64,000 nucleotides of DNA, from positions 2,716,501 through 2,780,500 of the forward strand of contig NZ_JYNQ01000001.1 in assembly GCF_000934685.1 (NCBI RefSeq), read 5' to 3'. The stretch is from Lacinutrix sp. Hel_I_90 (GTDB lineage: Bacteria > Bacteroidota > Bacteroidia > Flavobacteriales > Flavobacteriaceae). Below are positions 48,484 through 55,110 of the stretch, piece by piece (the stretch's first letter is position 1; each line of letters opens with the position of its first letter). The position numbers were made by a program, and so were the translations under genes. The notes under the pieces were generated by a model. It had not been told where the DNA came from, did no database searches, and was given only the letters and a program-made list of their open reading frames with translations.

Positions 48484-50073
48484 ATGGAATTTAAATTTGG
48501 AGGTTCAGAAACCAATCAAAAAACAGTATTAGGTCATCCGTCAGGATTATTTGTGTTGTTTTTTACAGAAATGTGGGAACGCTTTTCTTACTACGGTATG
48601 CGCGCACTTTTAGTATTATTTTTAGTCTCGACTTTAATAGATGGTGGCTGGGAATGGGATAGAGCTGATGCTTTAGTACTATATGGTTGGTATACTGGAT
48701 TGGTTTATTTAACACCAATTATTGGTGGTTTTATTGCTGATAAATTTATGGGCTATAGAAAGGCAATTATTTTAGGTGCATTTATTATGACACTTGGGCA
48801 CGCATCTATGGCTTTAGAAGGAATAACTTCTGTTTTCTTTTATGCAGGTTTAACTTTTTTAATTATTGGTAATGGCTTATTTAAGCCGAATATTTCTTCA
48901 ATGGTTGGGCAACTATATAAATCACAAGGAAAAGAGAAAGATGCTGGGTACACCATTTTTTATATGGGTATTAATGCTGGCGCTTTTTTAGGTATTCTTT
49001 TGTGCGGATATATAGGAGAAAATGTTAATTGGCATTATGGTTTTGGTCTCGCTGGTGTGTTTATGTTTTTCGGAATGTTACAATTTTATTTCTCTCAAAA
49101 AATATTTGGTAAAATAGGATTAACACCTGTTAAAACTGGAGCTGTTGATGAGGTAATAGAAGACAGTGTAGAAAAAATAGGAGAGGATATTGAAGCTGTG
49201 GTAGAAGGTGTAGAAAATTCTAAAGTTGTGAGAGACAGAATGATTGTTATTGGTGTTTTATCATTATTCGTAGTGTTCTTTTGGTGGGCCTTCGAGCAAG
49301 CAGGTGGTTCTATGACCGTTTTTGCTGCAGACTATACAGACAGGGCTCTAGAAGGTAGTGCTGCTACATCATTTAAAATTATAAATACAATAATAACTGT
49401 TATTCCTATGTTGGTTATTACATGGGTTTTAGCTATGTTGTTTAAACAAACTTTCAGCAAATATGCCCTTGCTAATATTATCTTAGGATTTAGTTTTGTT
49501 ATAATTTGGGGCATTGTGATTTGGATGTTAAATAGAGAGTTTCAATCAGATACTACAGAAGTTCCTGCTTCATGGTTCTCAGTCTTAAACTCTTTATTTA
49601 TTATTTTATTTGCTCCTTTATTTTCTAAGGTATGGGAAAGTAAATTCAATCCTTCAGGACCAGTTAAATTCGCCATCGGATTGTTTTTAGTAGGTCTAGG
49701 GTTTGCAGCTTTGGCTTATGGAGCTTCAGGAATACCAGATGGTGCTAAAACGGCATCTGTTAGTTTAGTTTTCTTGGTTATTGCATATTTTCTTCATACC
49801 ATGGGGGAACTATGCGTTTCACCAGTGGGATTAAGCTATGTTAGTAAATTAGCACCAGTGAAATTTGTAAGTCTTATGTTTGGAATTTGGTTCACAGCTA
49901 ATTTCTTTGCAAATCTTTTAGGTGGTGTTACGGGAAGTTATATTGATCCAATTTCTGAAGAGCATGGGTTGTCTACTTTCTTTTTAATATTTACTATAAT
50001 ACCAATAGTTGCGGCTTTGATAATGTTAGCTCTTAATCGTACATTATTAAAAATGATGCATGGTATAAAATAA
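48484..50073 (+). CDS. POT/PTR-family proton-dependent peptide transporter
   Basis: 529 residues with 12-14 helices. Helix 1 has the family motif EMWERFSYYGMRALLVLFL (ExxERFxYY), and GGFIADKFMGYRKAI is the MFS loop after helix 2. A long cytoplasmic loop near 215-255 (rich in Val and Glu) separates the two halves. POT carriers import di- and tripeptides with protons. Being 25 bp behind the dipeptidyl peptidase gene, it is well placed to take up released dipeptides. A terminator follows at 50097. Confidence 0.93.
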   Translation: MEFKFGGSETNQKTVLGHPSGLFVLFFTEMWERFSYYGMRALLVLFLVSTLIDGGWEWDRADALVLYGWYTGLVYLTPIIGGFIADKFMGYRKAIILGAFIMTLGHASMALEGITSVFFYAGLTFLIIGNGLFKPNISSMVGQLYKSQGKEKDAGYTIFYMGINAGAFLGILLCGYIGENVNWHYGFGLAGVFMFFGMLQFYFSQKIFGKIGLTPVKTGAVDEVIEDSVEKIGEDIEAVVEGVENSKVVRDRMIVIGVLSLFVVFFWWAFEQAGGSMTVFAADYTDRALEGSAATSFKIINTIITVIPMLVITWVLAMLFKQTFSKYALANIILGFSFVIIWGIVIWMLNREFQSDTTEVPASWFSVLNSLFIILFAPLFSKVWESKFNPSGPVKFAIGLFLVGLGFAALAYGASGIPDGAKTASVSLVFLVIAYFLHTMGELCVSPVGLSYVSKLAPVKFVSLMFGIWFTANFFANLLGGVTGSYIDPISEEHGLSTFFLIFTIIPIVAALIMLALNRTLLKMMHGIK

Positions 50074-50096
50074 AACAGTACAATACAAAATTTAAC

Positions 50097-50128
50097 AAAA
50101 CGCCTCTTTGGGGCGTTTTGTATTTTTG
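50097..50128 (+). terminator. Terminator after the peptide transporter
   Basis: AAAACGCC (50097-50104) pairs with GGCGTTTT (50112-50119) around a 7-base loop, followed by a T-rich tract. The next promoter starts inside this hairpin's loop. Confidence 0.8.
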
Positions 50129-50136
50129 TAACTTTG
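50108..50136 (+). promoter_or_regulatory. Promoter of the thioredoxin-like gene
   Basis: TTG at 50108-50110, an 18-bp spacer and TAACTTTG at 50129-50136 match the consensus. A second -7-like box, TATTTTTG, lies directly before it at 50121-50128. The -33 element sits in the loop of the terminator, so the two overlap. Confidence 0.65.
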
Positions 50137-50174
50137 GAACACTATTTGCAATTAGGTTTATAAAATATATAGAA

Positions 50175-50723
50175 ATGAAAAAATACATTGTTTTAGCTTT
50201 TATTGGTTTTTTTGCAACAGCAACATTAGTTGCACAAGAAATCAATTGGGTGACACTAGAAAAAGCTGTTGAGCTTCAAAAGAAGAATCCTAAAAAAATT
50301 ATGATGGACATGTATACCGTTTGGTGTGGTCCCTGTAAAATGCTCGATCGTAATACGTTTAGTAATAAAGATGTTGCAACCTATGTTAACAAACATTATT
50401 ATGCTGTAAAATTCAACGCAGAAGGTAACGACACAGTAAAATTTAAGGATAAAACCTTTGGTAATCCAAGCTATAATCCTGCGAAAGCTAAAAGCAGAAA
50501 TTCAGGGCATGAATTGTCACGTTTCTTTAGCGTGCGTGCCTACCCAACATTAGTGTTTTTAGATGAAAAAGCAGAGTTTATAGCACCAATTTCTGGGTAT
50601 AAAACACCAAAGCAATTAGAGTTGTATTTAAAAATGTTTAAAAAAGATGACCACTTAGCAATGGATACGCAAGCCAAATTTGGTGAGTACGCCAAAAACT
50701 TTACGGCAGAATTTTCAGAGTAA
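50175..50723 (+). CDS. Exported thioredoxin-like protein
   Basis: 182 residues from the ATG at 50175; the longer frame from 50118 would begin upstream of the promoter start site and hide the signal peptide. The signal ends TATLVAQ. The thioredoxin active site is WCGPCK, cysteines near 51 and 54, in the DMYTVWCGPC setting. A cis-proline segment (RAYPTLVF) is present. It likely works as a periplasmic thiol-disulfide reductase or oxidase. It is convergent with comEC; a hairpin inside the comEC 3' end may end its transcript. Confidence 0.88.
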   Translation: MKKYIVLAFIGFFATATLVAQEINWVTLEKAVELQKKNPKKIMMDMYTVWCGPCKMLDRNTFSNKDVATYVNKHYYAVKFNAEGNDTVKFKDKTFGNPSYNPAKAKSRNSGHELSRFFSVRAYPTLVFLDEKAEFIAPISGYKTPKQLELYLKMFKKDDHLAMDTQAKFGEYAKNFTAEFSE

Positions 50724-50728
50724 TACAC

Positions 50729-52756
50729 TCAATCTATAGGTAGTACAAAAGCACCCCTTTCACCAGTATAGTGAAAAGGGGTGTTTTGTTTTATGCAAGT
50801 CGTCTTCCAGCGTGAAATGTAAGACTTATAATTACTCCCATCTGCAATAATCATTTTAGGTTGAAGAGAATCAATCAGGCGAATCATATTCAATTTTGGG
50901 GATTGTGTAAGTAATATGTAATCTACTTTAAAACCTTTAATTTGATACGCTCCCAGACTATCGATAATTAGTAAATGTTGTTTTTTACTAAGTTTTAAAA
51001 CGGAAGGTAAGGTGTTTTTCTGAATACTTTTAATGTTGTTTCCTACGCTATAATCTTTCAAATTATAAAACTGCTGAAGACTATCCAAATTAGAATAGAC
51101 CTTAAAAGCATTAGCTGTTTTTTCTCCAATAATAGTATATCTCGTTTTATGAAAAATGGCGAATTCACGTGAGCTGTTTTTTAGTTTTGAAAATAGATAA
51201 GTCCCTTGAAATAATAGAACGGTAACTAAGGTGAAGCGCAACCATTTATAGTTAGGCTTCATCGCAAATTGGACTGCCGCTATAATTAGTAAATAAGCCG
51301 CAAACAACTGAAACAGGGTAAATGAAATATCCTTAAATAAAAAAGATTCTTGGAGTGATAGCCATTTCATGAGACTATTCATGCCAGATATAATTAAACT
51401 GAATACCTCTACTAACCATTCGGGTAAAACGTTAAGCAAAGCAAGTACAATAACTAAAATGCCAACACCCAGAATAATCCCCAAAAAAGGAATGATAACA
51501 ATATTAGCGACAAAAAATAAGCCAGGAAATTGATGAAAGTAATAGAGGCTAACGGGTAAAACACCCAATTGAGCCGCGAGTCCAACCGTAAAGTAAATCC
51601 ATAGCTTTGATAAGACATAATTTTTAGGTTGCCATAGCTTAACTAGTTTTGGTTGTATGGCAACAATGGCTATTACCGCTAAATAACTTAATTGAAAGCC
51701 GACGTCAAATAAAAATAAGGGTTTAAACAGTAATAATACAAATACAGAAATTGCTAAGGTATTGTAAATGTTCGTTGGGCGCTTTAAGTGCATGCCAATA
51801 GCAATAATGCTAAACATGGTTACCGCACGTGTTACTGAAGCTGTTAAGCCCGCAATTACTGCAAAACACCACATGAGAAGAACTAGTAAGGCGATGGTAG
51901 TTTGTCTCCCATATTTAAAGCGCTTTAATGGTTTAAATAGCGTATTTAGTAGCACTAAAATGAGGGCAACATGAAGTCCTGAAACGGCCAGAATATGTAT
52001 CGCACCTGCATCTGTATAATTCTCATAAATATCTTTACTTAAATCTTGTCTTTGGCCTAAAATCAACGCATTGAGAATTGCTAAAACATCTGGTGGAAAG
52101 TTGTAGTTTTTAAGTTTGGTGTTAATTTGTTCTCGAACGGCATCAGCGTAACCATAAATGGTGTGTTTTTTATTGCTTACACTAAAAAGGCGTTCAGGGT
52201 TTACCGTTAACTGTTTATAAACGTATTGTTTTTCTAAGTAGCTTTTATAATTAAATTGATGCGGATTGATAATACCAGTAATCTCTTTAAAATTTTCTGA
52301 GGTAATCAATACATCATCCACTTTTAAGTGTTCTGTCAAACTGTCTTTTGAAACATTTAATAAAGCTTTGCCAGAGGTCATAACCGCATTTATTTTTAAA
52401 ATATCAACAATATATTTATCATTATAATGACCAGACTTTAACCGTTTTCGGATTCTAAATGTAATTTGATTTTCTGCAGAATTTATAGCGGTATAATGTA
52501 AAGGACCTTGCTGTTCTTCATGACTATTTGTGGTTAATACACCAATTGAAATCATGGTGAGAAAGCTAAACATACCAAACCAAATTGTTTTTAATTTATT
52601 TTGTTTCGATATAAAATAAATAACACCTAAAATGGCGATGAAAAAAACCGTTGCATACAGAGACCAAGCTAAAGGAATAGCAAAAAAATGAGCAATTAAT
52701 ATTCCTAAAACTAAGCAAGCAGTGAGCTTAATTATAGTGAAGTTTAGGAGTTTCAC
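50729..52756 (-). CDS. comEC: ComEC/Rec2-family DNA-uptake channel
   Basis: 675 residues. An N-terminal three-helix segment (about 1-75) leads to the periplasmic DUF4131 domain (about 90-200). The competence domain follows with HILAVSGLHVALIL near 251-264 and many helices to about residue 520. The last 130 residues align in place with the beta-lactamase-like domain but lack a HxHxDH metal site; the end (ADGSNYKSYISRW, then GERGAFVL) is of the short Bacteroidota type. ComEC passes single-stranded DNA through the inner membrane during transformation. It follows a chimeric gene that begins with a copy of its own N-terminus. Confidence 0.9.
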   Translation of the reverse strand: MKLLNFTIIKLTACLVLGILIAHFFAIPLAWSLYATVFFIAILGVIYFISKQNKLKTIWFGMFSFLTMISIGVLTTNSHEEQQGPLHYTAINSAENQITFRIRKRLKSGHYNDKYIVDILKINAVMTSGKALLNVSKDSLTEHLKVDDVLITSENFKEITGIINPHQFNYKSYLEKQYVYKQLTVNPERLFSVSNKKHTIYGYADAVREQINTKLKNYNFPPDVLAILNALILGQRQDLSKDIYENYTDAGAIHILAVSGLHVALILVLLNTLFKPLKRFKYGRQTTIALLVLLMWCFAVIAGLTASVTRAVTMFSIIAIGMHLKRPTNIYNTLAISVFVLLLFKPLFLFDVGFQLSYLAVIAIVAIQPKLVKLWQPKNYVLSKLWIYFTVGLAAQLGVLPVSLYYFHQFPGLFFVANIVIIPFLGIILGVGILVIVLALLNVLPEWLVEVFSLIISGMNSLMKWLSLQESFLFKDISFTLFQLFAAYLLIIAAVQFAMKPNYKWLRFTLVTVLLFQGTYLFSKLKNSSREFAIFHKTRYTIIGEKTANAFKVYSNLDSLQQFYNLKDYSVGNNIKSIQKNTLPSVLKLSKKQHLLIIDSLGAYQIKGFKVDYILLTQSPKLNMIRLIDSLQPKMIIADGSNYKSYISRWKTTCIKQNTPFHYTGERGAFVLPID
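50747..50792 (+). terminator. Terminator hairpin inside the 3' end of comEC
   Basis: CACCCCTTTCAC (50752-50763) pairs with GTGAAAAGGGGTG (50771-50783, one A bulged) around a 7-base loop, with T-rich sequence after it. It suits the thioredoxin-like gene, which ends 29 bp before it, although these bases also encode the last residues of ComEC on the other strand. Confidence 0.6.
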
Positions 52757-52780
52757 TCCTTGAAGATAGTAAAAAAAATT

Positions 52781-53419
52781 CTACAATACGCGTCGCGCCT
52801 GCACAAACGCAAAAAGCCAGTATTTTTCTGTCAATTTAGAGGTAATAACCCCTTGACTCGTGGTGGCGTGAATAAATGCTATAGTATCACCTTTTATAGT
52901 GGTGACCAAGCCAACATGGTTAATGCGCGGATTTCTTTTTTTAGTAGTAAAAAATAACAAATCACCAACTTTTATTTCTTTTAAAGCGATCCATTCACCC
53001 GTTTTTGCCATCTCATGCGAAGCACGCGGTAACGGAATATTCTCTTCCTTAAATACGGTGCGAATTAAACCAGAACAATCCATACCTTTTTTTGTGGTAC
53101 CACCATGTTTATAACGTGTGCCCTCGTATTTTTCAGCGTTTTTAATTAGAGCAAGAGCAACTGTAGGCATATGTTTTTCTTGATGAAAACCCGTAGTTAA
53201 CCCATCAATAAAAAGTATTGACAAAAAGCTAAAAATCACAAGCCGAATCGATGTTATTTTTTTTTGTTTATAAAAATAAAAGAGTGTGGCTAAAGCAGCG
53301 ATATGAAAAACTGTGGCATACAAAGAAATCGCAGTAGGAATAGCAAAAAAATAAGCAATCAATATTCCTAAAACTAGGCAAGCCATTAGTTCTATAACAG
53401 TGAATTTTGGGGGTTTCAC
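52781..53419 (-). CDS. Chimeric protein: ComEC N-terminal membrane segment fused to NlpC/P60 peptidase
   Basis: 212 residues in two parts. Residues 1 to about 80 copy the ComEC N-terminus (shared ACLVLGILIA, FFAIP, SLYATVF, MFSFL-like and LTT blocks), giving three membrane helices. From about residue 88 the protein copies the NlpC/P60 domain of the next upstream gene (KNAEKYEGTRYK to FAFVQARRVL, mostly identical). The catalytic cysteine (about 115, MDCSGL) and two histidines (about 168 and 184) are kept, so it should cut peptidoglycan peptides. The flanking spacers are also duplicated. This is what a tandem duplication with breakpoints inside nlpC and comEC would make. It replaces the ComEC periplasmic domain by the peptidase, so the enzyme would face the periplasm. 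Confidence 0.85.
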   Translation of the reverse strand: MKPPKFTVIELMACLVLGILIAYFFAIPTAISLYATVFHIAALATLFYFYKQKKITSIRLVIFSFLSILFIDGLTTGFHQEKHMPTVALALIKNAEKYEGTRYKHGGTTKKGMDCSGLIRTVFKEENIPLPRASHEMAKTGEWIALKEIKVGDLLFFTTKKRNPRINHVGLVTTIKGDTIAFIHATTSQGVITSKLTEKYWLFAFVQARRVL

Positions 53420-53444
53420 CTATTGAAGATACGAAAAATTTATA

Positions 53445-53987
53445 TTATAATACACGTCGGGCCTGTACAAACGCAAAATACCAGTATTTTTCTTTGAGTT
53501 TTGAAGTAATAACGCCTCTACTAGTTGTGGCGTGAATAAATTCTACGTCATCATCTTTGATAGCAGTCACCAATCCTACATGGTTAACACTTCTATTGTT
53601 TTTTTTAGTGGCGAAAAAAAGCAAGTCCCCTTTTTGCACTTCTTTTAAATCTATCCAGTCGCCAGATGTTGCCATAGCATGAGACACGCGTGGAATAGTA
53701 ATATTTTCTTCTTTAAAAGCAGTATAGATTAATCCTGAGCAGTCCATACCTTTCTTAGTGGTGCCACCATATTTATAACGCGTCCCTTCATACTTCTCAG
53801 CATTTTTAATAATGTCCTTAGCTAAAGGTAGCTCTAGAGTAGCAGATCTCACAACCGTTTGTGTTCTTTTAACAGGTCGTGTTGCTTTTGTGGTCTTTGA
53901 TTTCGTTGTAATGACCCGCCTGTTTTTTGCACTTCCGCAAGAAGAAAGTGAAAAAACGATAAGTAACATTAGGGCAATCTGTCTCAT
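53445..53987 (-). CDS. NlpC/P60-family peptidoglycan endopeptidase lipoprotein
   Basis: 180 residues. A lipoprotein signal ends VFSLSSCGS (cysteine about 17), followed by a basic Lys/Arg/Thr-rich linker (about 20-48). The NlpC/P60 domain starts near 55: MDCSGL holds the catalytic cysteine (about 83), VNHVGLV the first histidine (about 136) and FIHATTS the second (about 152). Such enzymes cleave D-Glu-diaminopimelate bonds in peptidoglycan stem peptides. It is the likely donor of the peptidase half of the chimera that follows after 25 bp, and it follows lpxB after 7 bp. Confidence 0.92.
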   Translation of the reverse strand: MRQIALMLLIVFSLSSCGSAKNRRVITTKSKTTKATRPVKRTQTVVRSATLELPLAKDIIKNAEKYEGTRYKYGGTTKKGMDCSGLIYTAFKEENITIPRVSHAMATSGDWIDLKEVQKGDLLFFATKKNNRSVNHVGLVTAIKDDDVEFIHATTSRGVITSKLKEKYWYFAFVQARRVL

Positions 53988-53994
53988 CTTAAGT

Positions 53995-55110
53995 TTAAGC
54001 TTTTATTGAATCATAAATGAGTTTAGCAGTATTTTCACTAGCACCTTTTCCGCCCAAAGCTTTTTCTAAATCGTAATAATTGATAAAAAATTTGGTCCGT
54101 TCATAAGGGTCTAGGATTCTATTTAACTCTTTTTTTAGGTTTTTCGTATTAAAATCGTCTTGAATTAATTCGGTTACGGCTTCTTTATTCAAAATTAAAT
54201 TAACTAAAGAAATGTAATCTAAATTCACCACACGTTTCCCAATCTGATAAGAAATCCAACTGCCTTTGTAGCAAACGACTTGTGGTACTTTAAACAATCC
54301 AGTTTCTAAAGTGGCTGTTCCAGAGGTAACTAAAGCGGCAGTTGAAACACTTAATAAATCGTAGGTTTTATTAGATAGAAAATGCACGTTCGCTTTTTTT
54401 ATAAATTGCTCGTAAAACGTATAATCTTGACTTGGTGCTCCTGCTATAACAAATTGATAGTCTGCGTAGTCATCGACAACGCTTAGCATTATAGAAAGGA
54501 TTTTGGTGATCTCTTGTTTTCGGCTTCCTGGTAATAGCGCAATAATTGGTTTTTCGCTTAATCCGTTTTCAGCTCTAAAGGTGTATTCATCGACCTGATG
54601 TCTATCTCCAATGGCATCAATTAAAGGATGGCCAACAAATTGTACTGGAAAATGATGCTTGTTTTCATAAAACGTTTTTTCAAAAGGTAAAATCACATAC
54701 ATCGCATCAATGTCATTTTTAATGGCTTTGATCCGGTTTTCTTTCCACGCCCAGATTTGAGGCGAAATGTAATAATGGTTTTTTAAACCTTTTTGTTTTG
54801 CCCATTTGGCAATACGTAAATTAAAACCAGGATAATCGATGTAAATAATAACATCAGGGTTGTAGGCTTTGATATCTTCTTTACAAAAAGACAAGTTTTT
54901 AGCGATGGTTCTTAAATTTTGAACCACTTCTATAAAGCCCATAAAAGCTAAATCGCGATAATGCTTAACTAGTGTCCCGCCAACAGCTTGCATTAAATCA
55001 CCTCCCCAAAACCTAAAATCAGCTTCAACATCTTCACGTTGTATGGCTTTCATAAGGTTCGAGCCATGCAAATCGCCTGAGGCTTCTCCAGAAATGATGT
55101 AGTACTTCAT
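53995..55110 (-). CDS. lpxB: Lipid-A-disaccharide synthase
   Basis: 371 residues of the GT19 family. The start YYIISGEASGDLHGSNLM with GEASGD is diagnostic, FWGGDLMQAVGG and IDYPGFNLRIAKWAK follow, and LLPGSRKQEI near 194-203 with SGTATLETGLF near 268-278 form the nucleotide-sugar site. It condenses UDP-2,3-diacylglucosamine with lipid X to form the lipid A disaccharide at the inner membrane. It lies 3 bp after a small membrane protein gene in the surE operon. Confidence 0.95.
   Translation of the reverse strand: MKYYIISGEASGDLHGSNLMKAIQREDVEADFRFWGGDLMQAVGGTLVKHYRDLAFMGFIEVVQNLRTIAKNLSFCKEDIKAYNPDVIIYIDYPGFNLRIAKWAKQKGLKNHYYISPQIWAWKENRIKAIKNDIDAMYVILPFEKTFYENKHHFPVQFVGHPLIDAIGDRHQVDEYTFRAENGLSEKPIIALLPGSRKQEITKILSIMLSVVDDYADYQFVIAGAPSQDYTFYEQFIKKANVHFLSNKTYDLLSVSTAALVTSGTATLETGLFKVPQVVCYKGSWISYQIGKRVVNLDYISLVNLILNKEAVTELIQDDFNTKNLKKELNRILDPYERTKFFINYYDLEKALGGKGASENTAKLIYDSIKA

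Follow-up and report, generated by a model that had tools for sequence, protein, structure and literature searches.

A chimeric gene of two Lacinutrix genomes, formed by tandem duplication, joins the start of comEC to an NlpC/P60 peptidase domain and is under purifying selection

Lacinutrix sp. Hel_I_90 carries an additional gene between nlpC and comEC, which begins as comEC and ends as nlpC. It is located in a window of 64,000 nt (the whole stretch of DNA that was analysed; contig NZ_JYNQ01000001.1, positions 2,716,501 to 2,780,500), to which all positions given here refer; all features described are on the minus strand. This chimera was made by a tandem duplication of about 664 nt and has been kept by purifying selection, and we consider it likely that it encodes a MepS-like endopeptidase anchored in the inner membrane and acting in the periplasm. 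The duplication took place in a common ancestor of the source Lacinutrix and L. neustonica, and both parents survived it intact. The third gene that arose at the join received the upstream element, the start codon and the first membrane helices (three are predicted) of comEC, and its end is the complete catalytic domain of the MepS-like NlpC/P60 lipoprotein. The product would be placed in the inner membrane with its cysteine peptidase domain in the periplasm. It would cleave the cross-links of peptidoglycan from the side of the inner membrane, while the parent would be lipid-anchored, probably in the outer membrane.

The order of genes on the minus strand is a gene that we take to be surE-like, a gene for a hydrophobic protein of 95 aa, lpxB (53995-55110; Pfam LpxB, E 3.3e-85), nlpC (53445-53987), the chimera (52781-53419) and comEC (50729-52756). 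The lpxB gene is located upstream of nlpC in relatives too. The parent nlpC encodes a MepS-like NlpC/P60 lipoprotein of 180 aa (Pfam NLPC_P60, E 8.9e-26) with the lipobox LSSC, which was read by eye from the sequence (MRQIALMLLIVFSLSSC). The second parent, comEC, starts with GTG and encodes 675 aa with the Pfam domains DUF4131 (E 4.9e-19) and Competence (E 4.5e-58). The chimera also starts with GTG and encodes 212 aa. About codons 1-81 are derived from ComEC (53177-53419) and codons 92-212 form the NlpC/P60 catalytic part (52784-53146). Between them, a junction zone of codons 82-91 (53147-53176) has no clear match to either parent. The original prediction had the coordinates and the order nlpC, chimera, comEC right; it had also described a ComEC-like start of about 80 residues and an NlpC-like end of about 125, and its guess of a junction near 53150-53180 was close to the zone found.

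The origin of the gene by duplication was demonstrated by comparing the region with itself. When 50000-54200 was searched by blastn against itself, a single off-diagonal match was obtained at E<=0.01, between 53810-53177 and 53146-52514, with 73.3% identity over 637 alignment columns (E 3.7e-105). This match starts inside nlpC, runs over the nlpC stop codon and the spacer, and extends through roughly the first 81 codons of comEC. Of the two copies of the unit, the upstream one (53177-53810) thus comprises the end of nlpC, the spacer and the start of the chimera, and the downstream one (52514-53146) the end of the chimera, the spacer and the start of comEC. The resulting order is A, B'-A', B, and since one match spans both gene boundaries, we regard it as the trace of one tandem duplication of about 664 nt. 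A DNA alignment of the two copies had been suggested as a check, and it supported the proposed duplication of an ancestral nlpC-comEC pair from the interior of nlpC to the interior of comEC, as did the undoubled gene order in relatives. The likeness to ComEC ends near codon 81, and from codon 92 onwards the sequence resembles NlpC. The codons in between, 82-91, have diverged so far that they fit neither parent, and with them the precise breakpoint and any short repeat there are lost. An assembly artefact was ruled out, because there is a 27% difference between the copies and the join recurs in an independent assembly.

The similarity of the two spacers, which had also been predicted, was confirmed. 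The spacer before the chimera (53420-53444, 25 nt) is a copy of the comEC upstream region, and the spacer before comEC itself (52757-52780) has 24 nt. Both contain TATCTT exactly 6 nt before the GTG (53426-53431 and 52763-52768, respectively), and the global alignment of the two spacers scored 6, a value that 24 out of 2000 shuffles of single bases also attained.

We searched for the chimera among relatives and found it in two of 13 Lacinutrix genomes, the source genome and L. neustonica HL-RS19. In the other 11 genomes the halves match separate genes, and nlpC and comEC lie 23-127 nt apart. Of 120 tabulated loci, three (L001, L005 and L059), corresponding to two genomes, have a match that covers the two halves together; some of the tabulated loci are one genome taken from two collections. 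The search for relatives with only nlpC and comEC, another check proposed beforehand, returned 115 of the 117 non-chimera loci: here the start of comEC lies -1 to 249 nt from the stop of nlpC, which leaves no room for a chimera gene. For the other two (L046 and L101) a match to the comEC start was not found within the stretch fetched. In 397 genomes of the family, a draw without the L. neustonica genome, no further match over the full span appeared among the matches listed. The only listed match that started before query residue 47 was the source's own; nine others started at residues 47-57, and the three of these that were checked (L039, L042 and L048) each had a single nlpC and a single start of comEC. 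When this sample was searched with a profile, the source itself stayed unmatched at E<=1e-45, the mixed alignment having collapsed to 94 positions. The statement that the chimera is restricted to two genomes is therefore weaker for the family than for the genus.

Some further features of these loci were observed. Six Gelidibacter loci (L076, L110, L113, L119, L124 and L134) have a tandem pair of whole nlpC genes upstream of comEC, and a seventh (L114) has one nlpC copy. The pairs were ruled out as chimeras, as each of the two genes aligns with residues 1-180 of the parent. Five Lacinutrix loci (L007, L008, L009, L010 and L012) have 109-127 nt between nlpC and comEC, compared to about 24 nt. 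That such long spacers are remains of a lost chimera was unsupported in L007, L009, L010 and L012, where shuffled sequences reached the score of likeness to the chimera 44, 27, 74 and 110 times out of 300. In L. neustonica (L059, 192-8502), the surE, nlpC, comEC, thioredoxin-like and S41 protease genes are frame-broken, and lpxB and the chimera are intact. This genome is rated 84% complete. We did not conclude that the parent nlpC is lost in L. neustonica, because four other genes in 10.9 kb are frame-broken too; the frame breaks are probably sequencing errors.

The original prediction had called the chimera newborn, and this was refuted by the second species that carries it and by its divergence. 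The two chimeras are identical at 148 of 212 residues (70%) without any indel. The dS between the two species was 0.91 for lpxB, 1.05 for nlpC and 0.985 for the whole chimera, with values for parts of genes ranging from 0.43 (comEC codons 1-84) to 1.66 (comEC codons 260-675). Between the chimera and its parent nlpC, dS was saturated (3.5). In trees, the source Lacinutrix and L. neustonica were sisters (support 100/99, lpxB plus ComEC residues 85-190). The chimeras formed one clade for the NlpC half (99/96) and for the ComEC half (100/99), and the parents of the two species also paired (nlpC 99/94, comEC start 85/86). Given these clades of chimeras and of parents, the sequences are most simply explained by a single origin of the chimera, by one duplication before the two species split. 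In neither the NlpC tree (AU p 0.11) nor the concatenated one (p 0.233) did all four copies group as a single clade; the ComEC tree grouped them, with a support of 35/0. A duplication on the stem of the two species is the simplest reading, the alternative being a deeper origin with later losses.

Comparison of the codons showed that the chimera has been under purifying selection since before the species split. A dN/dS analysis, which had been proposed together with the view that selection maintains a working product, gave an omega of 0.203 between the two chimeras, with an LRT against omega=1 of 55.3. For the catalytic part, omega was 0.134 (LRT 52.0), and for the ComEC part 0.449 (LRT 4.5, 84 codons). 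In the parents, the corresponding values between the species were 0.032 for the catalytic part of nlpC and 0.382 for comEC codons 1-84. With a branch model on seven sequences and a fixed tree, omega in the NlpC half was 0.129 on the chimera branches and 0.029 on all others (LRT 18.0); for the ComEC half the two values were 0.444 and 0.217 (LRT 4.4). Relative to synonymous change, the catalytic half of the chimera thus evolved about 4 times faster than the rest in this model. The chimera is therefore under less constraint than the parent genes but still far from neutral. The ComEC half changes fast in comEC too, and the evidence for a constraint of its own on this half is weak. A free omega for the chimera stem in the NlpC half was 0.63 and did not improve the fit (LRT 0.9), so this value does not demonstrate a burst of change after birth.

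The C-terminal part of the chimera clearly belongs to the NlpC/P60 family (PF00877, residues 100-210, 88.9 bits compared to a cut-off of 23). As predicted, the reading frame and the three catalytic residues are kept: Cys115 (53075-53077), His168 (52916-52918) and His184 (52868-52870) are present in both known chimeras and align with the catalytic residues of E. coli Spr/MepS, at the positions in Spr that we take to be the catalytic ones. By sequence, the best solved match was E. coli Spr/MepS (2k1g, E 6e-21). In a Foldseek search, the top chain came from an NlpI-MepS complex entry, and MepS itself (7v6s_A) was fourth. The MepS equivalog NF008096 (PRK10838) was the best NCBIfam match of the chimera with 87.8 bits, below the cut-off of 186, which the parent nlpC, although likewise nearest to E. 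coli MepS/Spr, does not reach either (93.8). The NlpC domain was modelled by AlphaFold2 in blocks with pLDDT values of 89-97.

The location and activity of the product we infer from its predicted structure. As read by eye, the chimera has no lipobox and the parent nlpC has one; its Cys14 lies inside helix 1, was inherited from ComEC and is invariant in 13 Lacinutrix ComEC proteins. The chimera is clearly similar to the comEC start (56% over ComEC residues 6-85, E 7e-25). Pfam detected neither DUF4131 (PF13567) at E<=1 nor the Competence domain (PF03772) in the chimera, the latter being present in the real comEC. For the N-terminus, AlphaFold2 predicted helices at residues 7-24, 29-51 and 57-81 with moderate confidence (pLDDT values of 61-82 in blocks of 10 residues). 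The charges fit a cytoplasmic N-terminus for three helices, with K2 and K5 at the start and K51, K53 and K54 between helices 2 and 3. Charged residues also occur within the predicted helices (E10, R59 and D72), and helix 3 of L. neustonica is weakly hydrophobic (best 19-residue mean 1.38). In B. subtilis ComEC, the N-loop, which holds the OB fold, was placed outside the cell by reporter fusions, and the N-terminal region before the OB fold is described as a helix pair, not three helices (PMC5031224). Since the NlpC domain is attached approximately where the ComEC N-loop begins, it should reach the periplasm. The inward orientation of the N-terminus is less sure than the outside position of the part that follows, because that report speaks of a helix pair (PMC5031224). 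Most likely, the chimera resides in the inner membrane with its cysteine peptidase domain in the periplasm, where ComEC has its OB domain, and the parent NlpC is probably lipid-anchored in the outer membrane.

Other explanations had to be weighed against this reading. Selection may have favoured more NlpC enzyme, the ComEC helices being a tolerated device for export and anchoring and the product duplicating the job of the parent. This fits the constraint on the catalytic half, which is much lower in the ComEC half, and also the pairs of whole nlpC genes at the same place in six of seven Gelidibacter loci, which indicate that extra nlpC copies can be kept there. It is compatible with the explanation that we prefer, which concerns where and how the chimera acts. 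We nevertheless regard it as unlikely: the location very likely differs, given the lipobox in the parent and its absence from the chimera, and 11 residues of the N-terminal half are common to both chimeras and absent from the 13 Lacinutrix ComEC proteins, perhaps by shared descent. A decaying leftover of a neutral duplication that by chance stayed open in both species is very improbable. The faster amino-acid change than in the parent is what decay would produce, but neutrality was rejected with the LRT of 55.3, no indel has arisen between the species in 212 codons, and the triad is kept. In simulations of neutral substitution, the frame remained open in 1580, 94, 10 and 1 of 20,000 runs at 0.1, 0.25, 0.5 and 1.0 substitutions per site, respectively.

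We also considered that the chimera works together with ComEC, its helices lying beside or within the DNA-uptake channel and its NlpC domain opening the wall for incoming DNA. Of 26 positions (residues 2-84) that are invariant in the 13 Lacinutrix ComEC proteins, 15 are kept in both chimeras, 10 of them in residues 6-28, and the chimera is directly upstream of comEC. However, the other 11 positions are altered in at least one chimera, descent alone accounts for the kept residues, and the adjacency adds no extra evidence, since the ancestral nlpC already adjoined comEC. A partnership of this kind thus appears improbable. Slightly less probable still is its most specific form, a dedicated gate-opener for DNA uptake, which would take the position of the OB domain at the ComEC channel, docked by its ComEC-derived helices, and would cut the wall exactly at the site of entry; if this were true, a single duplication would at once have relocated an enzyme and added a component to the uptake machinery.

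Known systems offer points of comparison for the reading that we prefer, in which a MepS-like endopeptidase was relocated to the inner membrane. The chimera shares with E. coli MepS (Spr) the same NlpC/P60 domain and the Cys-His-His residues. MepM is an M23 metallopeptidase with a fold unrelated to NlpC/P60. According to PMC8278236, MepS is located in the outer membrane, MepM is a wall endopeptidase of the inner membrane, and either of them alone restores growth of the E. coli double mutant. The chimera, with predicted membrane helices and no lipobox, differs from MepS and resembles MepM in its predicted place. The DUF4131 region of ComEC, a helix pair and an OB fold (PMC5031224), was the source of about the first 81 residues of the chimera, which, unlike ComEC, has no OB fold and no Competence domain.

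Chimeras of the same kind are known from the laboratory. In S. aureus, nusG'-'sigH and rplK'-'sigH chimeras arose by short-junction tandem duplication under a positive selection screen, and revertants were found (PMC3486894). As in Lacinutrix, the start of the downstream gene was joined to the end of the upstream gene with the parents intact, and the promoter, RBS and start codon of the downstream gene drive the fusion. Unlike those of S. aureus, the Lacinutrix chimera is common to two species, diverged and constrained; the gain in S. aureus was expression (PMC3486894), and in Lacinutrix it would be a new membrane anchor. Fusion genes of bacteria born by deletion, as presented in a preprint (PMC12803068), were also joined from two pre-existing coding pieces, whereas the Lacinutrix chimera came from a duplication that kept both parents. 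A literature search of titles and abstract starts, with most subscription journals outside it, returned no description of this chimera among the matches listed. Two of the listed papers name ComEC and NlpC once each, and the only listed paper in which L. neustonica occurs is a list of names. What is new is a natural and conserved tandem-duplication chimera with a predicted change of membrane anchor, a kind of gene known from laboratory selection (PMC3486894). In this natural case, both parents are intact alongside, close relatives have the undoubled order, and selection was tested. The case illustrates how a gene can acquire its enzyme domain, a signal for its expression and a new membrane anchor in one short duplication, and the predicted move of the enzyme from a lipid anchor to the inner membrane is directly testable.

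As to the expression signal, 76 of the 97 distinct stretches upstream of comEC have a TAnnTT element whose end is 4-9 nt from the start codon; 500 shuffles of single bases gave 18 such stretches on average and 29 at most. TAnnTT resembles the -7 promoter box of Bacteroidota. Both chimeras keep TATCTT at the same 6-nt distance. As the element was copied by the duplication, its sequence suggests that the chimera may have had expression of its own from the outset, in addition to whatever read-through comes from nlpC. In many Flavobacteriaceae, TAnnTT may be a -7 promoter box that gives rise to a nearly leaderless comEC mRNA.
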